From: Motilimonas eburnea
GTDB lineage: Bacteria; Pseudomonadota; Gammaproteobacteria; Enterobacterales; CBDFNC01
NCBI RefSeq assembly: GCF_021295345.1
Contig: NZ_JAIMJB010000014.1
Span: forward strand, 1-64,000
DNA length: 64,000 bases
Direction: 5' to 3'
Shown here: piece after piece, positions 10,851-53,465 of the stretch
How the letters are laid out: the number at the start of each line of letters is the position of its first letter
Numbering within the stretch: the first letter of the stretch is position 1
Program-made: the position numbers and the translations under genes
Notes under the pieces: model-generated
What the model was told of the DNA's origin: nothing
Databases searched by the model: none
The model's input: only the letters and a program-made list of their open reading frames with translations

Positions 10851-11936
10851 TTATAAACCTAAAAAGTTGAGATTAGGCTCTCCATCGAGCTGAGAAACTG
10901 ACTTTATATATTCTGGCCACTCACCGATATCAAGCCAAGATTTTTCACTTATTGGAAAAACACCTACACGCCCAGCGCGTCGTCGAACCTTCTCTATTAA
11001 ATCAGTAATGTGGTAAAACTGATCTTTAGGGATTTCATCAAGTAAGTGAGGCTCTAGTATATATACACCAGCATTTATCTTGAATGACAAATCCGGTTTT
11101 TCTTGCATACCTTCCAGTAGGCCATCTTTACCAGAGAGCACGGTACCATACGGTATTGAAATTTGTTTCATTGCTGCAACAAGCGTTATTTCATTTTTGT
11201 TTTCGACATGATAGCTATATAGTTCACTAAGATCTTGATCAATTAAAATATCACAGTTCGTTACATAGAAGGTGCTATTTAACTTTCCTTTTAATAGGCT
11301 GAGTGACCCCGCTGTACCCAAAGGCTCAGTCTCAGAAAAATATTCTATGGATTCTGACTCCCCGACACTCTCTAAATAATATTTTATCATTTCTTTTTTG
11401 TAATTAACCGATAGATAAAAGTCTTCAGTCCCGGCATTCTTGAAACGATGAATAATTTCTTCTAGTATCGTTTTTTCTCCAATCGGAACAAGAGGCTTAG
11501 GAATTACATTCGAGAGTGGTTTTAAGCGAGTTCCCTTTCCCCCAGCCATTACAACCACAGGAATATTATTCTTAGTCCTAGGATAAATCTCATCATTTTC
11601 AGCTACATCCTCCCAAAAAACCACTGAGTATAAGTCTCTATCCCCATTCAAAACAGGCATAAAATCGGCCCTCATAGAAGTCATAAGGGACTTTATTCTT
11701 TCATCCGAATCCTTAGTAGTTGCTGTTATTTTTTCATCTATCTTAATTTCACTTAACGTGTCATTTAGATTATGGCCTTTGATAATAGAACGCTGAATAT
11801 CACCTATACTAATTAAGGTTAGAAATTTTCCATATTCATCTTTTATTATTAACAATTTTTTTTTGATAGCATCCATCTTATTCAATGCCATCAGTAAACT
11901 ACAATTTGTGGAGATGCATAGATCGTCTATATTCAT
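10851..11936 (-). CDS. CBS-domain sugar-phosphate nucleotidyltransferase (PtmE-like)
   Basis: 361 residues. Two CBS repeats occupy about residues 1-115 (SIGDIQRSI and MRADFMPVLNGDRDLYSVV). They are followed by an NTP-transferase domain with the signature VVVMAGGKGTRLKPLS, then PKPLVPIGEKTILE, and later SWLDIGEWPEY. This layout is that of PtmE, the GlcN-1-phosphate guanylyltransferase of the Campylobacter legionaminic acid pathway, and of relatives in nonulosonate loci. It sits 2 bp after the NeuD-type acetyltransferase. No neuB, neuC or CMP-sugar synthetase is present, so it may activate a hexosamine as GDP-sugar for the adjacent dehydratase and aminotransferase. Confidence 0.75.
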   Translation of the reverse strand: MNIDDLCISTNCSLLMALNKMDAIKKKLLIIKDEYGKFLTLISIGDIQRSIIKGHNLNDTLSEIKIDEKITATTKDSDERIKSLMTSMRADFMPVLNGDRDLYSVVFWEDVAENDEIYPRTKNNIPVVVMAGGKGTRLKPLSNVIPKPLVPIGEKTILEEIIHRFKNAGTEDFYLSVNYKKEMIKYYLESVGESESIEYFSETEPLGTAGSLSLLKGKLNSTFYVTNCDILIDQDLSELYSYHVENKNEITLVAAMKQISIPYGTVLSGKDGLLEGMQEKPDLSFKINAGVYILEPHLLDEIPKDQFYHITDLIEKVRRRAGRVGVFPISEKSWLDIGEWPEYIKSVSQLDGEPNLNFLGL

Positions 11937-11938
11937 GG

Positions 11939-12526
11939 TTATTTTCTTACAAATATTGAGTTTGCTTTAACAAAATGCGAAGCAGGCACAGATACAGAGT
12001 TTACAACCACCGCCCCACTACCAATAAAAGATGAATGACCAATACAAGCACCTCCATTTACTATCGCTCCAGTAGATATATGGCAATCAGAATCAACAAA
12101 AGAATCGTGCTCGATCAACGCCTTACTATTAATAATACAATTTTCTTTTATTCGAGCATTTGCATTAATTAAAGCGTCATGCATCACTATTGTTCCTTGG
12201 CCAATTGAGGCAGAATTAGCTATGTATGCTCGACTAGAAACGACAGTGGCAAATTTACCTCCACACTTAGTAATTTCTATAAATAGTTTTCTTCGAGCCT
12301 TATTACTCTTTATATGACCGATAGTGATTAAAAAAAAGTAATCTTTTCTCACATACTTTAAAATATCGTTATCAGTTCCTAAAATTGGATACCCCAAAAC
12401 AGTCTTGCCAACATTTTGAGCGGTATCTAGAATCCCATGTATTTTGTATTTTGATTCACTCTCAATAACATCAATACACGAAACACAATGGCCACCGCCA
12501 CCAAGCAAGATGAGCTTTTTTTTCAT
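11939..12526 (-). CDS. NeuD/PglD-family sugar acetyltransferase
   Basis: 195 residues. The N-terminal Rossmann-like PglD domain starts KKKLILLGGGGHCVSCIDV, where GGGGH is the family signature. The second half is a left-handed beta-helix (IGQGTIVMHDALINANARIK, CIGHSSFIGSGAVVVNSVSV). PglD-type enzymes N-acetylate the 4-amino group of a UDP- or GDP-4-amino-4,6-dideoxy-GlcNAc. Its start codon overlaps the stop of the aminotransferase gene in a TGATG (12524-12528), so the two are translationally coupled, which supports consecutive steps. Expected product: a di-N-acetylbacillosamine-type nucleotide sugar. Confidence 0.8.
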   Translation of the reverse strand: MKKKLILLGGGGHCVSCIDVIESESKYKIHGILDTAQNVGKTVLGYPILGTDNDILKYVRKDYFFLITIGHIKSNKARRKLFIEITKCGGKFATVVSSRAYIANSASIGQGTIVMHDALINANARIKENCIINSKALIEHDSFVDSDCHISTGAIVNGGACIGHSSFIGSGAVVVNSVSVPASHFVKANSIFVRK

Positions 12527-13665
12527 CAGAATGGACTACTAGGTAAATTTATTAGATGCGCTTCAATAAATTCTGAATACTTAAGGTCACCGCGTAATGC
12601 ATTCTCATACATAGGTAATCTGTGCATTAGCTGCCAAATCGGCCGAGTCATCACACCTGAACCATTTGTGCTTGTAAGTACTTCTTCACGACTTACCTTA
12701 TCTGGACAAATGATCGCGTTTAACCAGTAGTTTGACTTTGCATACTCTGGTTCAGTGACAAGTTTAATATCTGTACCTTTGAAGAAACCGTCGTAGCTTT
12801 TTGCAAGTAGCCTCTTCTTCTTCAAATACTGTTCGATGACCTCCATCTGAGCACAACCTAGAGCGGCATTCAGGTTTGGCATACGGTAGTTGAAACCGGG
12901 TTCATCATGAAAGAACTCATAAGGGTGAGGCACTTTCGCTGTCGTTGTAACATGCTTAGTACGCGCACCTAATTCTTGAGTCTTACATAAAACCATACCA
13001 CCACCACCCGTGGTAATGATCTTATTACCATTGAAACTGACAGCACCAAAGTTACCTATAGTTCCCGTATGCTTGCCCTTATAGAAAGACCCTAGGCTTT
13101 CTGCAGCATCTTCAACTAAAGTAAGATTCCATTTTTGGCAAACAGCAACTAATTCATCAAGCTCTACTGGGTGGCCGAATGTGTGCATAGGCACAACAGC
13201 CTTAATTCGCTTACCGGTTGGTTTATGAATACAACCCGTTTCTGTTACCTCAGCGAACTCATTTAAAAAAGCCTCTACGGCTTTAGGACAAAGACCTAAA
13301 CTGACAGGAGAAACATCCACGAAAATCGGCTCTGCGCCCATATGGTAAAGAGCATTACAGGTTGCGACGAAAGTCAGTGCTTGCGTAATGACAAGATCAC
13401 CTCTTTGAACATCAGCCATGTACAATGCAGCATGCAATGCCGCCGTTCCATTTACTGTCGCTACCGCTTTAGCGGTAGCAGTGTAAGCTTCAATTTTTTT
13501 TTCAAAGTCATCAACAAACTTACCTACGCTAGAAACAAAAGTACTTTCAATCGTTTCCATTACGTAAGATTTTTCATTACCATCAAATTTTGGAGCATGT
13601 AATGGTATAAACTCGTTGGTTTTGTAAATATCTCTAACAAATTCAACTATAGATGTCGCGTTCAT
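12526..13665 (-). CDS. LegC-family PLP aminotransferase
   Basis: 379 residues of the DegT/DnrJ/EryC1/StrS family. VNGTAALHAALYMA, TFVATCNALYHMG, LVEDAAESLGS (Asp near 186) and FNGNKIITTGGGG (PLP lysine near 215) are visible. The EFIPLHAPKFDGNEKSYV N-terminus is the LegC subgroup signature. It would transaminate the 4-keto group of a nucleotide-linked 6-deoxy-4-keto-GlcNAc using glutamate. It follows the dehydratase by 12 bp and is coupled to the acetyltransferase downstream. From here to wecB the base composition returns to normal for this genome, so this gene marks one edge of the AT-rich cassette. Confidence 0.85.
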   Translation of the reverse strand: MNATSIVEFVRDIYKTNEFIPLHAPKFDGNEKSYVMETIESTFVSSVGKFVDDFEKKIEAYTATAKAVATVNGTAALHAALYMADVQRGDLVITQALTFVATCNALYHMGAEPIFVDVSPVSLGLCPKAVEAFLNEFAEVTETGCIHKPTGKRIKAVVPMHTFGHPVELDELVAVCQKWNLTLVEDAAESLGSFYKGKHTGTIGNFGAVSFNGNKIITTGGGGMVLCKTQELGARTKHVTTTAKVPHPYEFFHDEPGFNYRMPNLNAALGCAQMEVIEQYLKKKRLLAKSYDGFFKGTDIKLVTEPEYAKSNYWLNAIICPDKVSREEVLTSTNGSGVMTRPIWQLMHRLPMYENALRGDLKYSEFIEAHLINLPSSPF

Positions 13666-42651: not shown

Positions 42652-42742
42652 GCCCTTTTTGTGCCACAATACTGAGCTTATAAAAATAGGCGTACATCGC
42701 CATCCAACTCACGAATTACACAAGCGGAACGTGGAACACAAT

Positions 42743-43123
42743 ATGAAAAAACTCGTCGTTGACTTAGATGGCACCATCACCTTAGCCGATACCAATGATT
42801 ACCCCAATGTCGCTCCCAATATGGCCGTGATCGAGCAACTAAGAAATTATAAAGCCCAAGGCTTTAGCATTTGCATTCATACGGCCCGTAATATGCGCAC
42901 CCATCAAGGCAATGTCGGCTTAATCAATATTCACACTTTGCCGATTATTACCGCTTGGCTGGATAAACATGATGTACCTTACGATGAAGTGACCGTGGGC
43001 AAACCTTGGTGTGGCCACGAAGGCTTTTACATTGATGACCGCTCCGTGCGCCCCAGTGAGTTTGCCAGCATGAGCTTCGAGGAAATTGAAGCCTTACTCG
43101 CCAAGGAAAAAGCATGTTCTTAA
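42743..43123 (+). CDS. HAD-superfamily phosphatase of the LPS/capsule type
   Basis: 126 residues from ATG 42743; the longer frame to 42659 lacks a site. VVDLDGTITLADTNDYPNV is the DxDGT catalytic motif; IHTARNMRTHQGNVG and the GFYIDDRSVRPSEF motif with paired Asp complete a small cap-less HAD fold. Homologues annotated as capsular biosynthesis phosphatases occur beside nucleotidyltransferase and kinase genes. It overlaps the next gene by 10 bp. Substrate unknown, likely a phosphorylated sugar, alditol or small amino-alcohol. Confidence 0.7.
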   Translation: MKKLVVDLDGTITLADTNDYPNVAPNMAVIEQLRNYKAQGFSICIHTARNMRTHQGNVGLINIHTLPIITAWLDKHDVPYDEVTVGKPWCGHEGFYIDDRSVRPSEFASMSFEEIEALLAKEKACS

Positions 43124-44706
43124 TTATGTCAGCGGCGTATATAAGCCAAGAGTTAGAATCGGAATTCGGTACTATTCCTCCGGCTTTTTTACCCCTTGGC
43201 AATAAACGCTTGTTTCAACATCAGGTGTTATCGGCGCCTATGGGTAAGCGCATTTATTTAAGTGTGCCCGAAAGCTACCAACTCAATCCTTTTGATCTAG
43301 CTTGGTTACAACAACATCAGGTAACGGTATTGCCCATACCCGATGGCATTTCACTGGGCGCTTCCTTAATATCGGCATTAAACCTAATGGGTCATGATCT
43401 TGACCAACCATTGAGTATTTTATTTGGCGATACCTTGATCCCAGCCTTACCTAACGGCGATGATATTGTAGCGATCAGCGAAGTAGAAAATAGCTATAAC
43501 TGGGCAGTGATCACCCATGATGAAACTGAGCTACTAAAAACCAATCAAGTGCGTAGCGAGCTCGACAGTACTAACGTGGTTAGTGGCTATTTCAAATGCA
43601 GCCAGCCCAAACAATTACTGCAATGCCTTATCAAAGCCCACTGGGACTTTAATGGCGGGATGAATTTATACCACCAAAAAGTCGGCCTCAATACCGTGAG
43701 AATTGAAAACTGGCTTGATTTTGGCCATGTTAATACCTATTACCGTTCCAAGGCCAAGTACACCACCCAGCGTGCCTTTAACGAACTGACCATTACTCCA
43801 AGATGGATTGAAAAATCCAGCCAGAAGAGCGTAAAAATTAGCGCCGAGGCCCATTGGTTCGAAAACCTGCCAGCTATGCTACGCACATTTACTCCGCAGT
43901 TTCTTGGCGCAAGACAAACACAAGATCCACCTAGCTGCGCCTATCGTTTAGAGTATTTGCATCATACCGCATTAAATGAGTTATATGTGTTTTCAGCCCT
44001 GCCCGATATGGTATGGCGACGCATCATTAATGGCTGCTTACATTTTGTCAGCGAATGTGAGCAGCATCCTGCTCCCGCACAGGCCCACAGCGCCCAGCTG
44101 AGCCAATTATTTAGCAATAAAACCGCTCAGCGTTTGCAGCAATATTGCAACGAGCAGCAGCTGGAACTGGGCAAACCTTGGCGCTATAACCAAGCCTTGT
44201 CTTTATCTTTAAACCAATTACAGCAATTCAGTGAAGCGCATTTACCTAAAACGGCGCGCCCTAGCTCGGTGATGCACGGCGATTTTTGCTTTAGCAATAT
44301 TTTGTACGATTTTCGTACCAACAGCATAAAAACCATCGATCCACGCGGCCTTAGCCCAGATGAGACCTTAACCATCTATGGTGATGTTCGTTACGATCTC
44401 GCCAAACTAAGCCACTCGATTATCGGCCTCTATGACTGGATCATCGGCGGCTATTTTGAGCTAGAGCTGGCCGACTATGAGATCCGTTTTGAGCCGCTGC
44501 AGCCCAAGGAGCTCAAAGCCACTCAACACTATTTTATGAGCCAAGTAGAAGCCCAGTTTGGCCTAAGTCGCGCCGAGCTCTATGCCATGCAAATTCAATT
44601 ATTCTTGTCTATGCTGCCACTTCACAGTGATGAGCCAAGACGTCAGCAAGCCTTAATGGCCAATGCGTTTCGCCTATACCAATTATTAACCGAGGAAACC
44701 TCATGA
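43114..44706 (+). CDS. Nucleotidyltransferase-like / APH-type kinase fusion
   Basis: 530 residues from ATG 43114 (AAGGAAAAAGC upstream). Residues 1-240 resemble a sugar-nucleotidyltransferase fold (FLPLGNKRLFQHQVL, LSILFGDTLIPALPNGDD, WLDFGHVNTYYRSK), but the usual GxGTR loop is absent or replaced by AAYISQELESEFGTIPPAFL. Residues 250-530 are an APH/choline-kinase-like domain with the catalytic loop VMHGDFCFSNIL and metal-binding IDPRG. The fusion suggests phosphorylation followed by nucleotide activation of an LPS substituent. Overlaps with genes on both sides tie it to the HAD phosphatase and the next nucleotidyltransferase. Exact substrate unknown. Confidence 0.65.
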   Translation: MFLIMSAAYISQELESEFGTIPPAFLPLGNKRLFQHQVLSAPMGKRIYLSVPESYQLNPFDLAWLQQHQVTVLPIPDGISLGASLISALNLMGHDLDQPLSILFGDTLIPALPNGDDIVAISEVENSYNWAVITHDETELLKTNQVRSELDSTNVVSGYFKCSQPKQLLQCLIKAHWDFNGGMNLYHQKVGLNTVRIENWLDFGHVNTYYRSKAKYTTQRAFNELTITPRWIEKSSQKSVKISAEAHWFENLPAMLRTFTPQFLGARQTQDPPSCAYRLEYLHHTALNELYVFSALPDMVWRRIINGCLHFVSECEQHPAPAQAHSAQLSQLFSNKTAQRLQQYCNEQQLELGKPWRYNQALSLSLNQLQQFSEAHLPKTARPSSVMHGDFCFSNILYDFRTNSIKTIDPRGLSPDETLTIYGDVRYDLAKLSHSIIGLYDWIIGGYFELELADYEIRFEPLQPKELKATQHYFMSQVEAQFGLSRAELYAMQIQLFLSMLPLHSDEPRRQQALMANAFRLYQLLTEETS

Positions 44707-45428
44707 TAGTGATCCCCATGGCAGGGCTAAGCTCTCGTTTTTTCAAAGCTGGTTACCAGCAGCCGAAATACATGTTAATGGCCCACGGTGAAACCCTTTT
44801 TGCTCATGCCGTTAACAGCTTTAAGGCCTACTTCGACAGCGAAACATTTTTATTTATCGTCCGCGATTTATATGAAACTAAAGCCTTTGTTACCGAGCAA
44901 GCGCAACAGTTAGGTATTAACCAATTTGAAATCGTTGAATTAACCCAAGCCACCCGCGGCCAAGCGGAAACCGTGACCTTAGGTTTAGAGCAGGTTAAGC
45001 ATCAAAATACGCCAATTACCATCTTTAACATAGATACCTTTCGACCTGGCTTTACCTTTCCTACTATTCAAAGCCAATGCGATGGTTACTTAGAAGTGTT
45101 TCAAGGTAGCGGTGATAACTGGTCATTTGCAAAGCCTGAGCAAGCCAACTCAACCAAGGTCGTGGAAACGGCAGAAAAGCGCCCGATTTCAGATCTTTGC
45201 AGCACGGGGCTGTATTATTTCGCTAACTGCCAAGACTATCTCGACGCCTATTATCATTACGCTAATTTGCCAAAAGAACAGTGGGATCAAGGCGAGCTGT
45301 ATATCGCCCCCTTATATAACTATCTGATTGAGCAAGGCCGTGACATTCATTATCATTTGATCCAGCGTGATGACGTCATTTTCTGCGGTGTGCCCGCCGA
45401 GTACGATGCCTTTTTAAGCCGAGATTAA
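44703..45428 (+). CDS. Small NTP-transferase (nucleotidyltransferase) of the core locus
   Basis: 241 residues. VIPMAGLSSRFFKAGYQQPKY carries the GxSSRF...K nucleotide-binding signature; FNIDTFRPGF is the metal-site Asp region and FCGVPAEYDAF the C-terminal substrate region. It starts in an ATGA overlap with the fusion gene (44703-44706), so it is translationally coupled. Together with the phosphatase and kinase it forms a three-gene module likely making an activated phospho-substituent. Confidence 0.7.
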   Translation: MIVIPMAGLSSRFFKAGYQQPKYMLMAHGETLFAHAVNSFKAYFDSETFLFIVRDLYETKAFVTEQAQQLGINQFEIVELTQATRGQAETVTLGLEQVKHQNTPITIFNIDTFRPGFTFPTIQSQCDGYLEVFQGSGDNWSFAKPEQANSTKVVETAEKRPISDLCSTGLYYFANCQDYLDAYYHYANLPKEQWDQGELYIAPLYNYLIEQGRDIHYHLIQRDDVIFCGVPAEYDAFLSRD

Positions 45429-45458: not shown

Positions 45459-46388
45459 ATGAGCCAGTTTGAACACATCAGTGTGGTGGTCCAAGGGCCG
45501 GTACAAAATAACTACCAAGGTCGTAGCCACCATGAAGAAGGGATCACCCAGCGTTGCTTAGCTAGCGTGCGTGAACACCTTCCTGGCGCCACCTTAATCC
45601 TATCCACTTGGCCAGAACAAGACCTCAACGGGTTAGAGTATGATCAACTGGTGATTAGCCCAGATCCGGGTAAAAACCAAGATGGTTACTGCCCCGATAA
45701 TTACTATCGCCAAATCACCTCGACCAAAGCCGGTCTAGCCAAGGTGACAACGCCTTATGCCGTTAAGCTGCGTAGCGATAACTTTCTGATTGGCAATCAA
45801 TTTGTTGAACTGCAACAAAGGTTTAATAAAACCAATCCAGCCGACCAAGTATTTGATGAAAAAGTAGTGATTAACGCTAACTTATTTCGCAAGTACTCTC
45901 GTGGCCATAAGGTGATCATGAGCCCGAGTGACTTTTTTTACTACGGCAAGACAGCGGATTTACAGCGCATTTGGCAACAGCCTGAGTTTTTAACCCAAGC
46001 TTTTGCCCAGCAATTAATTGACCTGAAAAATCATAGCCAGCAAAAGTATGCCCTAGAAGCAGAGCAGGTTTATTGCCAGATTTGGCTGAGAAGGCTCACT
46101 GAGCAAGCCCCGTTAATGGCCCATCGATTTGACTTTAACCAAGCCGACTTAGCCTTTTGGCAGCGCTTTTTAGCCTGCAACATCATCATCGCCGAACCAG
46201 AGCAAATGGGGCTAGGGCTGCGCAAAGCGTCTATTCGCAAATTTAAGCGGGCCAATGAATACAGTCATATTGATTGGTTAAAGTTGTATCAAGAGTATTG
46301 CGATCCCAATACTCATGTCCCATACCAATGGGAACAATTAAGGTTAATGGCGATACGCGCCATTAAACAATGCCGGCCAAAGCCTTAA
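45459..46388 (+). CDS. WavE-family LPS core protein (copy 1)
   Basis: 309 residues, with AAAGGAGC 7 bp before the ATG. ISVVVQGPVQNNYQG at the N-terminus, CLASVREHLPGATLILSTWP, EYDQLVISPDPG and TTPYAVKLRSDNFLIG define the WavE family first seen in the Vibrio cholerae LPS core (wav) locus. A GT-A-like glycosyltransferase role is presumed, the RSDN motif acting like the DxD. A paralogue with the same motifs lies at 48515-49534. Cytoplasmic, no membrane helix. Confidence 0.78.
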   Translation: MSQFEHISVVVQGPVQNNYQGRSHHEEGITQRCLASVREHLPGATLILSTWPEQDLNGLEYDQLVISPDPGKNQDGYCPDNYYRQITSTKAGLAKVTTPYAVKLRSDNFLIGNQFVELQQRFNKTNPADQVFDEKVVINANLFRKYSRGHKVIMSPSDFFYYGKTADLQRIWQQPEFLTQAFAQQLIDLKNHSQQKYALEAEQVYCQIWLRRLTEQAPLMAHRFDFNQADLAFWQRFLACNIIIAEPEQMGLGLRKASIRKFKRANEYSHIDWLKLYQEYCDPNTHVPYQWEQLRLMAIRAIKQCRPKP

Positions 46389-47537: not shown

Positions 47538-48485
47538 ATGGAACGGCATATTTTACATATACATGATCAAGCGCTGCCCCCGACACCAACCAGTGGTGGC
47601 TCTAATCGGTTAGTTGATTGGTTAGCCAAAGAACAAAGTTTACTCGGGCATATGGTGAGCGCATTATCGCCACAGGGCCATACTACACCTTACTATCAAC
47701 ATATCCTCGCTGATATTAAACAGCTGGATTTTCAGCAACTTTGCCAGCTGATTCCTGATTCTGTCACCGATATTGAATACCACGGAGGGCTAACTGCAGA
47801 GATAGCGCATCAACTTTGTCAGCGCTACCCTCGTTTTATTTCAGTGATCCATTCCACCTGCGGTAAAACATCCCCTAATCGCGTTTATGTTTCAGCATCA
47901 CATGCACGCCACCATGACGATCAACGCTTTATTTACAATGGTGTGCCAGTGGATGAAATTGAGTTTTCCGAAGATAAAAAGGATTATGCGCTCTTTTTAG
48001 CGAAGGTAAAACGCAGTAAAAAAGGGGTCCAAGATGCTATTGATATTGCCAAGCAAACCAAACACCCATTATTAATCGCCGGTGGCAGACGATTTGGTAG
48101 CCCAGAAACTTGGTTCCCTTGGCACCCTAGTATTAAGCCCCTTGGTTACATCAATGGGGCTCAAAAACAAACCATTATTAAACACGCTAAAGCCCTGTGG
48201 GTGCCGATACGCTGGGAAGAGCCATTTGGTTTAACCGTGGTTGAAGCCATGCTCGCGGGAACGCCTGTCATCGCATACAATAGAGGCGCGATGAAAGAGC
48301 TCATCCATCATGGCGTTTCTGGATTTGTGTGCGACACCAAAGCAGAATTTATAGATGCTCTCAATCTGGTTGATAAACTAGATCCAAAGATCATTCGCCA
48401 ACATGCGCTCGATAACTTTTCTGCCTTAAAAATGGCCACTGCGCATCTAGACATGCTCACACTCGCGGGCTCAGAGCCATGGTAA
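47538..48485 (+). CDS. GT4 family glycosyltransferase, shorter form
   Basis: 315 residues from ATG 47538; a GTG two codons upstream is also possible. HILHIHDQALPPTPTSGGSNRL, FISVIHSTCGK, YALFLAKVKRSKKGVQDAID and the donor block WEEPFGLTVVEAMLAGTPVIAY (E(x7)E) identify GT4. The first domain is shorter than in classical enzymes. It overlaps the upstream possible start of the second WavE gene. Confidence 0.82.
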   Translation: MERHILHIHDQALPPTPTSGGSNRLVDWLAKEQSLLGHMVSALSPQGHTTPYYQHILADIKQLDFQQLCQLIPDSVTDIEYHGGLTAEIAHQLCQRYPRFISVIHSTCGKTSPNRVYVSASHARHHDDQRFIYNGVPVDEIEFSEDKKDYALFLAKVKRSKKGVQDAIDIAKQTKHPLLIAGGRRFGSPETWFPWHPSIKPLGYINGAQKQTIIKHAKALWVPIRWEEPFGLTVVEAMLAGTPVIAYNRGAMKELIHHGVSGFVCDTKAEFIDALNLVDKLDPKIIRQHALDNFSALKMATAHLDMLTLAGSEPW

Positions 48486-48514
48486 GCACAACCCACACAT
48501 CGATAGGTAAAGTA

Positions 48515-49534
48515 ATGGACATGCGTGACATCACTGTGGTGGTACAAGGACCGGTACACAGTTATCAACAGCGAGCAATGGATGATAATATCACCAAACA
48601 ATGCCTCGCATCTGTGCGCCAATTTTTACCTAAGGCTCACATTATTTTGTCTACCTGGCCTGAACAAGATCTCAGTGGCTTGGATTATGATGAGCTCATC
48701 ATCAATCCAGATCCTGGCAGTAATATTCGTTATTACACCGATAAGCACAAGCCAAAAGGGCTGAATAATAACCGCCAGATCGTCTCTACCTTAAATGGGT
48801 TAAAGGCCGTTAAAACCAAATATGCGATCAAGCTTAGAAGTGATAACTACCTGACATCTGCTGAATTTGTAAACTTATTTAACCGTTACCAAACGCGTTG
48901 CGATGGCCCATCTGTCTTTAAACAACGCATTGTGATCCCAAACACCTTCAGCCGTAAGTATGCCAAAGGCTTACCTGTCGCGTTTCATCTTAGTGACTTT
49001 TTCTACTTTGGATTAACCGAAGATCTACTCAAGCTGTGGGATATTCCACTGCTAAAAAATTATGATCTTGAGGCCCAAGGTATACCTAGCCCCGGTTACC
49101 CTAACTATCCCATCGACTGCACCCAAATGTTCTGGCAAGAAGGCTTGAAGAACTTTACATTCAATACCCAGCTGGGCCACCTACATGATTTATCTCATGA
49201 TAAGTTACATCTAAGTGAACAATTTATCGCAAACAATTTGATCATTGCAGCCCCAGAGGAAATAGGCTTGGGTTTATGTGATAAATTTTTAGGTCAAGCG
49301 CGTGTGAACCGTGTGAGAGGAAAGAGCAGTTTTTATCAATTGAGCGATTGGCTTAACTTATATCGCCAATATTGCGATGCCCAACAACCAATGAAAGTAT
49401 CAGCAAGGCTACTTCTGTGGCTACAACGCTTAGTGTATGTCTACCCGGTGATGCTTGAAACCCGATTTAAACTAAAAAAGCGCCATCGGCGCTTCAACAA
49501 GAGGCTAAACCAAACGGACGACAGTTCAATTTAG
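48515..49534 (+). CDS. WavE-family LPS core protein (copy 2)
   Basis: 339 residues from ATG 48515, chosen because it places VVVQGPVHSY at the same distance from the start as in copy 1 and has AGGTAAAG upstream. An in-frame ATG at 48479 overlaps the GT4 stop. CLASVRQFLPKAHIILSTWP, DYDELIINPDPG and KTKYAIKLRSDNYLTS match copy 1 closely in order and spacing, so the two arose by duplication. The C-terminus ends in a basic tail (KKRHRRFNKRL). It probably adds a related sugar at another core position. Confidence 0.78.
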   Translation: MDMRDITVVVQGPVHSYQQRAMDDNITKQCLASVRQFLPKAHIILSTWPEQDLSGLDYDELIINPDPGSNIRYYTDKHKPKGLNNNRQIVSTLNGLKAVKTKYAIKLRSDNYLTSAEFVNLFNRYQTRCDGPSVFKQRIVIPNTFSRKYAKGLPVAFHLSDFFYFGLTEDLLKLWDIPLLKNYDLEAQGIPSPGYPNYPIDCTQMFWQEGLKNFTFNTQLGHLHDLSHDKLHLSEQFIANNLIIAAPEEIGLGLCDKFLGQARVNRVRGKSSFYQLSDWLNLYRQYCDAQQPMKVSARLLLWLQRLVYVYPVMLETRFKLKKRHRRFNKRLNQTDDSSI

Positions 49535-52391: not shown

Positions 52392-53465
52392 TTAAATCTT
52401 CCAATAGCCCAATTTCTTGCGCATTTTTAAATGGCGGATAAGGTTGCTTGGTTTGGCTTTTAAATGAGATGTGCCTTTAGCTAATAATCCATCCACCGCG
52501 GCCAATACGCGCTCGCTGGAATGGCCATCACGATACGGGTGCAGTGACTCAGTATAATCGCGGATCCCTTGCATCAAGTCTGCAGGATGAGTCAGCGCCT
52601 CGGTTAAGGCAGGATGTACTTGATCTGTTTGGGTAATATTATAAAGATGCGGCCCCGGCATCTTATTGTTAAACGTGACCACCGGCTTTTGTAGCATTAA
52701 ATACATCAACACAATCGATGAGGTATCACACAGCATCACATCAGCCGCCGTTAGCAAGGGCAATACATTGTCGGTTTCAACAAATTGGGCATTGGGCATA
52801 CTGGCACATAATGCTTGATACATCTGCACCACTTCTGGCTCCATTTTTGGGTGGAACTGAATAAGCCAATGCCACTCCCCTGTAGCCATCAGGCCTTTTA
52901 CGGTATCAAACAAGGTGCGAGCACAAGAGATCTGCTTAGAAAAGGTGGAGCACATCAACACGGTTTTACGGCCATCTTGACTTAAATAGGGATTGTCAGC
53001 CATAGGCGTAAACAAAGGATCCAGCGCCGCCCAACCGGTTTCAACCACGTCAAAATGGCCATGTTGTTTGGCTAACTCTTGAAACCGCCCCGTGGTGCTC
53101 GGGCCTTGAGTGCAATATAAATCAAAGCAATTACGGATGGCAAAATGGCCCTTGTTACCTTCACTCTTGCGCTTGCCGGTATCAAAGCCATGAAATAAAG
53201 CGACTTTTAGTCCGGGAATAAAACTGGGCACCACGTTACCGGGGACAAACACCGCATCCGGCTGCCAAGCTATCACCTCCGCTACCGAATGCCAGCGTTG
53301 CTCGTTTGGCTTAAGGTGTTTAGGGTCAACTTCATTGCCTTCCAAAAACCAATAAACTTGATCGCCACGCGCCAAAATCGCCGTTTGCAAAGGGCGTAAC
53401 ATGGCATAGGCATAATTTTGCGCAATGTAAAATAGATAACGCTTAGTCGACAATCCCAGTTCCAC
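52392..53465 (-). CDS. CDP-glycerol glycerophosphotransferase-like protein
   Basis: 357 residues from GTG 53465; start uncertain. LFYIAQNYAYAMLRPLQTAI, VALFHGFDTGKRKSEG (HGxxxGKR), WHWLIQFHPKMEPE (the HPK of the family) and VMLCDTSSIVLMYLMLQKPVV (DxSS) are those of TagB/TagF-type enzymes. Here it may add glycerol phosphate or a related unit to the LPS inner core. No CDP-glycerol synthase (tagD) is seen in the window. Divergent from waaA. Confidence 0.78.
   Translation of the reverse strand: MELGLSTKRYLFYIAQNYAYAMLRPLQTAILARGDQVYWFLEGNEVDPKHLKPNEQRWHSVAEVIAWQPDAVFVPGNVVPSFIPGLKVALFHGFDTGKRKSEGNKGHFAIRNCFDLYCTQGPSTTGRFQELAKQHGHFDVVETGWAALDPLFTPMADNPYLSQDGRKTVLMCSTFSKQISCARTLFDTVKGLMATGEWHWLIQFHPKMEPEVVQMYQALCASMPNAQFVETDNVLPLLTAADVMLCDTSSIVLMYLMLQKPVVTFNNKMPGPHLYNITQTDQVHPALTEALTHPADLMQGIRDYTESLHPYRDGHSSERVLAAVDGLLAKGTSHLKAKPSNLIRHLKMRKKLGYWKI

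Follow-up and report, generated by a model that had tools for sequence, protein, structure and literature searches.

Three Overlapping Genes in a Lipopolysaccharide Core Locus of Motilimonas eburnea as a Candidate Route to Activated Fructose

Introduction

What is made by three overlapping genes that encode a phosphatase, a kinase fused to a nucleotidyltransferase-like domain, and a nucleotidyltransferase? This question is raised by a lipopolysaccharide (LPS) core locus of Motilimonas eburnea (NCBI RefSeq assembly GCF_021295345.1, contig NZ_JAIMJB010000014.1, positions 1 to 64,000), lying in a stretch of 64,000 nucleotides that was analyzed as a whole and that we call the window. The module comprises a small HAD phosphatase (HAD), the fusion protein (FUS), and a compact nucleotidyltransferase (NT). 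We consider it fairly probable that HAD, FUS and NT make activated D-fructose for the Motilimonas LPS core, by a kinase-phosphatase-nucleotidyltransferase route that leads to a WavE-family transferase. Loci and genomes are denoted by L and G numbers, respectively.

Results and Discussion

Composition of the Three-Gene Module

An original prediction, made from the window alone, had placed three overlapping genes at positions 42743-45428, and the open reading frame coordinates confirm them, with overlaps of 10 bp between HAD and FUS and of 4 bp between FUS and NT. The features of the module are the following:

42743..43123, + strand, HAD phosphatase of the EcbF/BcbF family, 126 amino acids (TIGR01689, PDB 1xpj, invariant motif residues)
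43114..44706, + strand, FUS, APH-type kinase preceded in the same protein by a nucleotidyltransferase-like domain, KfoE homologue, 530 amino acids (sequence and model)
43114..43773, + strand, FUS residues 1-220, nucleotidyltransferase fold, GDT kept, lacking the GxSxR loop and catalytic Lys
43813..44703, + strand, kinase part of FUS (residues 234-530), of the APH type, with the motifs HGDxCFSN (388-395) and DPRG (409-412)
44703..45428, + strand, NT, compact nucleotidyltransferase of 241 amino acids in which the catalytic loop, Lys and Asp are present (PDB 4evw, invariant residues)

The first open reading frame runs from 42659 to 43123 by its first start codon and from 42743 to 43123 if read from the ATG at 42743. 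Its assignment as a small HAD phosphatase holds, with a score of 216.5 bits against the EcbF-BcbF model TIGR01689 (cut-off 162) over residues 1-125 of 126, a 210-bit match to PDB 1xpj, and DxDxT, K and DD residues that are invariant (89/89). The compact nucleotidyltransferase is also borne out: NT matches PDB 4evw (titled V. cholerae RC9) at 367.7 bits, and its catalytic residues G8, S10, R12, K22 and D111 are invariant (89/89). Distant relatives of NT are also encoded in 19 Synechococcus phage records, MF351863 for example, and identity ranges from 28.6 to 30.3% among the 10 that were listed. Some of these relatives bear the annotation phosphatase or HAD hydrolase.

APH kinases share a catalytic HxDxxxxN motif and a metal-binding Asp. 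In the kinase part of FUS, residues H388, D390, N395 and D409 are invariant (88/88), the motifs of the window protein being HGDFCFSN and DPRG. The Pfam APH family (PF01636) scores 22.5 bits against the window FUS, just below its gathering cut-off of 23.2, and matches 43 of the 57 scanned FUS members at E<=0.01, while the APH(3') aminoglycoside kinase structures 4h05 and 4feu are among the FUS fold matches. The FUS model, for which 57 of 80 rows were used, has a mean predicted local distance difference test score (pLDDT) of 93.4, and its fold comparison, covering residues 1-237, gives residues 1 to ~220 a nucleotidyltransferase fold, with Z scores of up to 21.7 (GlmU) and of 19.1 for 4evw; the 50 matches listed for this domain are all nucleotidyltransferases (Z 18.6-21.7). 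We assign the domain to the nucleotidyltransferases because of this fold, as its profile comparison with NT is weak (probability 9%). Read on alignments, it retains GDT but not the GxSxR loop and the Lys that NT carries, in agreement with the predicted fusion of a degenerate nucleotidyltransferase to an APH-type kinase. Having lost its catalytic loop, it probably serves in binding or as a scaffold.

These results also bear on the proposed resemblance to LicA/LicC phosphocholine modification, which they do not support. A phosphocholine- or phosphoethanolamine-like substituent would be in keeping with the pairing of a kinase and a cytidylyltransferase-like enzyme, and the FUS N-terminal domain does resemble LicC in fold (1jyl, Z 18.7), although this match is one of many ties. 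However, the Choline_kinase Pfam family matches only 2 of 57 FUS members, and weakly, LicD was not seen among the nine window proteins scanned, and 4evw is the sole PDB entry that NT matches in sequence at E<=0.1, so that LicC is no close relative of NT. Considering also that the E. coli K4 capsule, to which we return below, is described as chondroitin plus fructose, and that the genetics of K4 speak against it, we regard such a substituent as very improbable.

Linkage and Distribution of the Module

A scan of species genomes gave at least 500 pattern matches, at least 472 of which encode a FUS relative, and the best 80 yielded 79 loci, drawn from Gammaproteobacteria, Alphaproteobacteria and Bacteroidota. 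The order HAD-FUS-NT on one strand is kept in 79/79 loci, with HAD within 30 bp of FUS in all 79 and NT in 76. In L035 and L097, NT is set apart from FUS by an insertion of 2 kb, and in L100 the two show an apparent 71-bp overlap as counted from the first start codon; in L061, NT is truncated by the contig end. This linkage exceeds chance, and three activities so coupled agree with the original suggestion that the genes serve one product. The 2-kb segment between FUS and NT in L035 (Motilimonas cestriensis; 11590-13655) and L097 carries a WavE gene, and the locus has thus been rearranged within the genus Motilimonas.

In a survey of 295 genomes of the window organism's order, full FUS was found in 23 (two further matches, at 19 bits, being marginal), HAD over its cut-off in 21, and NT at 240 bits or more in 22. 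As regards the co-occurrence that had been proposed as a check, all genomes with HAD or NT at these scores are among the 23 with full FUS. Strict linkage is contradicted by G078, with FUS alone, and by G052, which keeps HAD, NT and WavE pieces without FUS. It is further relaxed by G108, where HAD survives in broken pieces and FUS is interrupted by one stop, and by distant NT relatives (up to 86 bits) in G116, G148, G207 and G241, and elsewhere in G108. The lone FUS of G078 (L124:8511-10082, G078:C10) apparently lies, as judged by eye, beside housekeeping genes.

In a survey of 5426 E. coli genomes, the Xenorhabdus module as query gave partial DNA matches in 127. The module is present in the O78 (L117) and O20 (L115) O-antigen clusters, and in the capsule locus of strain PCN033 (L119:6908-14429) its order is NT-HAD-FUS, next to a 1157-amino acid protein with Capsule_synth and weak HAD matches. 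In L120 (E. coli MLI104K2), which has wzm/wzt labelled O92 and WavE, a GT2-annotated gene takes the NT position and small ORFs replace FUS, which is seemingly broken, the sole FUS match being an 82-bp stretch.

KfoE and the Link to Fructose

The gene order of locus L121 is chondroitin synthase, a 477-amino acid protein, HAD, FUS (here split by IS1), NT, a nucleotide-sugar dehydrogenase and a GT2 protein. Residues 58-682 of its chondroitin synthase align end to end with PDB 2z86, with no mismatch seen, and 2z87, a sister of that entry, bears the title chondroitin polymerase from E. coli strain K4; L121 is the K4 capsule locus. In published descriptions this capsule consists of chondroitin that carries fructofuranose on glucuronic acid (PMC7429809), and kfoE is assigned to its fructosylation, while the functions of kfoB, kfoD and kfoG are given as unknown (PMC10609508, PMC3673904). 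Deletion of kfoE is reported to yield non-fructosylated chondroitin (PMC7925653, PMC7429809); KfoE and this phenotype are thus already known, and published genetics show that KfoE is needed for fructosylation in K4.

The primers printed for the kfoE deletion (PMC7429809) allow this gene to be placed. In both L114 and L121, the primer arms find matches of 51 and 50 nt that coincide with the two ends of FUS (in L114, one arm ends at 11424 and the other starts at 12993), and as they flank exactly FUS, KfoE is by this sequence match the FUS protein. A strong polar effect of the deletion seems unlikely, because the mutant continues to make the backbone although the dehydrogenase gene, by its place kfoF, is situated downstream. 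The genes kfoC, FUS (kfoE) and that for the 477-amino acid protein co-occur in the same 20 of the 5426 E. coli genomes. The window FUS is 43.7% identical to KfoE over 529 amino acids, and an overlapping HAD upstream and NT downstream of FUS are found in the window, L114 and L121 alike. We note that, judging from match spans and annotation, 5 of the 20 kfoE copies are broken (three by IS1, two by short deletions) and one or two bases are missing from 3 of the 20 kfoC copies, and loss of fructosylation may therefore recur in nature.

A Proposed Route to Activated Fructose

The simplest route parallels heptose activation, because the module provides an APH-type kinase, a small phosphatase, and a nucleotidyltransferase with intact motifs. 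APH-fold kinases that act on anomeric hydroxyls exist, methylthioribose kinase being an example. In the route that we infer for Motilimonas, the APH kinase of FUS would phosphorylate the anomeric C2 hydroxyl of fructose 6-phosphate to give fructose 2,6-bisphosphate, from which HAD would remove the 6-phosphate to leave fructose 2-phosphate; NT would then join this to a nucleotide (CTP being a guess), and a WavE-family transferase, or one of the KfoD type in other loci, would add fructose from the resulting nucleotide-fructofuranose to the LPS core or polymer.

A different order of steps with the same enzymes appears unlikely to us, whether activation and transfer of fructose 6-phosphate come first and HAD then acts on the polymer, or HAD begins by freeing fructose for the kinase to phosphorylate at C2. 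A late phosphatase step is possible because, in the Campylobacter jejuni capsule, the phosphatase Cj1435 is described as acting on serinol phosphate after its attachment, and ribose 5-phosphate as being transferred before dephosphorylation (PMC13276843). However, HAD is coupled to FUS and NT and not to transferase genes, and an LPS-core-like locus without FUS (L127:5329-7262, G256:C26) apparently fuses HAD to NT, which favors action before transfer. Beside WavE, this locus encodes a 348-amino acid NT with weak HAD-like C-terminal matches and an APH kinase that forms a protein of its own (27.1 bits, cut-off 23.2); its sequences suggest that the activities of the module have been repackaged here in another domain arrangement, without the degenerate domain.

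WavE and KfoD Families as Candidate Transferases

Two WavE genes lie downstream of the module in the window, the first of them a candidate for the transferase:

45459..46388, + strand, WavE 1, candidate transferase using the product (PF07507, 335.8 bits, cut-off 27)
48479..49534, + strand, WavE 2, second WavE paralogue (PF07507, 321.7 bits, cut-off 27)

Together with genes for an MsbB-type acyltransferase, an O-antigen-ligase-like protein and a GT25 protein, they bear out the LPS-core context given in the original prediction. The model of WavE 1 (pLDDT 93.7) matches glycosyltransferases with Z scores of up to 11.2 and IspD-type nucleotidyltransferases with up to 10.4, the Foldseek TM score being below 0.42 in the 50 matches listed, and the modeled fold fails to separate the two classes. 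Among the 79 loci, 60 have a WavE-family gene near the module and 8 a KfoD-family gene alone, giving 68 with either when the two loci that have both are counted once; nine of the ten E. coli and plasmid loci have such a gene. In the order, WavE occurs in 12 of the 23 FUS genomes versus 4 of the 272 others, these four having either a decayed module (G052) or other NT cassettes (G207, G241, G256).

The 477-amino acid protein is termed KfoD-type from the place of its gene alone, and its L114 copy is annotated shorter; a transferase role for this family is suggested by its context and by a shared 'STW'-type motif, as read by eye. The KfoD family and WavE were not joined by profile comparison, and among the groups tried, only that with the 456-amino acid protein of PCN033 joined WavE.

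The CDP-glycerol-transferase-like gene at 52392, which had been put forward as a possible user of a related activated substituent, is not tied to the module: its cluster is present in 12 of 80 loci including the window, within flanks of up to 10 kb. The gene product scores 25.7 bits against PF04464 (cut-off 22.1) over only 64 of 367 profile positions, and Epimerase_2 also matches, under its cut-off. A gene resembling it, by eye, sits in L127, where FUS is absent.

Weighing the Evidence for Fructose

Several observations weigh against activated fructose as the product and WavE- or KfoD-type proteins as its transferases. Two of the 21 HAD matches carry an internal stop (G096, G150), and G078 has a full-length FUS, with neither HAD nor NT found in the genome. 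Neither a WavE- nor a KfoD-family gene is present in 11 of the 79 loci (one of them, L061, being cut by the contig end), and O20 (L115) is the only E. coli or plasmid locus in this position. For the 477-amino acid KfoD-type protein, neither Pfam nor NCBIfam has a matching model. Both families also adjoin other NT cassettes (L125, L126, L129), and are therefore not fructose-specific. The O-antigen structures reported for O78 (mannose and N-acetylglucosamine) and O20 (galactose and ribofuranose) are not known to include fructose. Finally, KfoE itself is described in the literature as the fructosyltransferase of K4 chondroitin.

This other type of cassette, which WavE- or KfoD-family genes adjoin in L125, L126 and L129, combines a distant NT, a cupin-like protein, a HAD-IA phosphatase and an 'AHRG' phosphodiesterase-like protein (L125:6909-14054, L126:7919-10942, L128:6484-9894, L129:7196-11229), and three of these four copies include an additional NT; family models were run on L129 and one other protein, and the remainder was read by eye.

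To take the last of these objections first, if FUS/KfoE were itself the fructosyltransferase, its nucleotidyltransferase-fold domain would carry out transfer, with the kinase, HAD and NT supplying or tuning the donor. This possibility draws on the published name and the deletion phenotype, on the likeness of GT-A and nucleotidyltransferase folds (WavE scores against both), and on the C. jejuni protein HS1.08 (849 amino acids), for which a double role in the activation and transfer of fructose has been suggested (PMC11924219). However, its sequence and modeled fold suggest that KfoE is a nucleotidyltransferase-like domain plus a kinase, unlike its published name, and the fold matches listed for the N-terminal domain include nucleotidyltransferases only. 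In addition, mean column identity is 52% for FUS (57/80 rows) versus 32% for WavE (44/67 rows), across acceptors as unrelated as LPS core, chondroitin and O-antigens, and higher conservation is what would be expected of a donor enzyme; the frequent presence of a WavE- or KfoD-family gene beside the module points in the same direction. Taken together, we find a transferase role for KfoE improbable, and somewhat less plausible than a changed order of steps.

The O78 and O20 structures raise another possibility, namely that the family activates small sugars that differ by locus (another ketose or a furanose), with a window product other than fructose. In a quick tree of FUS, whose long branches make placements unsure, O78, the ABC-transporter clusters L116/L118, PCN033 and a plasmid capsule locus form long branches that fall outside the clade in which KfoE and the window lie, as this possibility would have it. 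On the other hand, the window FUS and KfoE share a 61-row clade (SH-aLRT 99) with Vibrio, and with O20 too. The core LPS of V. cholerae contains fructose, and NT is present in this species (4evw); the literature searched yielded no statement on fructose in V. cholerae core LPS. We thus consider a window product other than fructose improbable, to much the same degree as transfer by KfoE. Ribofuranose as a general product, a candidate prompted by the O20 structure, was also considered, and K4 speaks against it.

For O78 and O20 themselves, either the product varies between loci or an acid-labile fructofuranose may have been lost. The mild acid usually used to release O-polysaccharides would remove fructofuranose, and both clusters seem, counting from annotation, to hold more transferases than their repeats need.

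Taking these points into account, we see roughly even chances for a wider reading, in which the module is the missing fructose donor pathway and the first to a nucleotide-ketofuranose via a ketose 2-phosphate, KfoE is misnamed, and WavE/KfoD-type proteins are the true fructosyltransferases of capsules, O-antigens and LPS cores in Pseudomonadota and Bacteroidota. The original prediction knew of no described pathway with this set of genes; this needs amending for kfoE, which has been described in fructosylation, and stands for the set of three enzymes, as neither this activation set, nor its spread, nor the mismatch between the name and domains of KfoE was found in the literature searched, which covered few subscription journals and no bioRxiv preprints. 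Likewise, no explanation of bacterial fructose activation for capsules or LPS was found there, and the covered part of the literature matches held no mention of CDP-fructose, GDP-fructose or fructose-2-phosphate. Our reading of the module names three assayable enzymes for fructose activation, suggests that kfoE, used in chondroitin bioengineering, bears the wrong function name, and predicts acid-labile fructose in many polysaccharides, perhaps including some in which acid-based analysis has missed it.

Comparison with Known Systems

In ADP- and GDP-heptose activation (HldE or HddA, GmhB, HddC), a kinase forms a bisphosphate, a phosphatase acts on it, and a nucleotidyltransferase follows. The logic is like that of the route proposed here, but the module uses an APH-like kinase and an EcbF/BcbF-type HAD instead, and no heptose-pathway model (HldE/HddA-type kinase, GmhB) was over its cut-off for HAD, FUS or NT. 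LicA/LicC, too, pairs a kinase with a compact nucleotidyltransferase, whereas the module has an extra phosphatase, is not closely matched in sequence by LicC or choline kinase, and has no LicD among the window proteins scanned. The C. jejuni HS1.08 gene, like kfoE, is described as needed for capsule fructose (PMC7901785), but it encodes a single 849-amino acid protein as opposed to three genes, and is set beside the module by description only.

Among the closest systems is a Vibrio LPS-core locus of the wav type (V. mimicus, L056), in which the module is followed by WavE, as in the window, with 55.4% identity for FUS, 75.4% for HAD and 68.0% for NT; in the literature searched, no product is assigned to this Vibrio module. 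In kfo region 2 of E. coli K4, the same three genes occur in the same order with the same overlap, with 43.7% (FUS), 57.6% (HAD) and 52.3% (NT) identity between the window and L114. There, fructose goes on capsular chondroitin, whereas in the window the module lies among LPS-core genes, including those for WavE, and while KfoE has been published as a fructosyltransferase, we read the window FUS as a putative activation enzyme.

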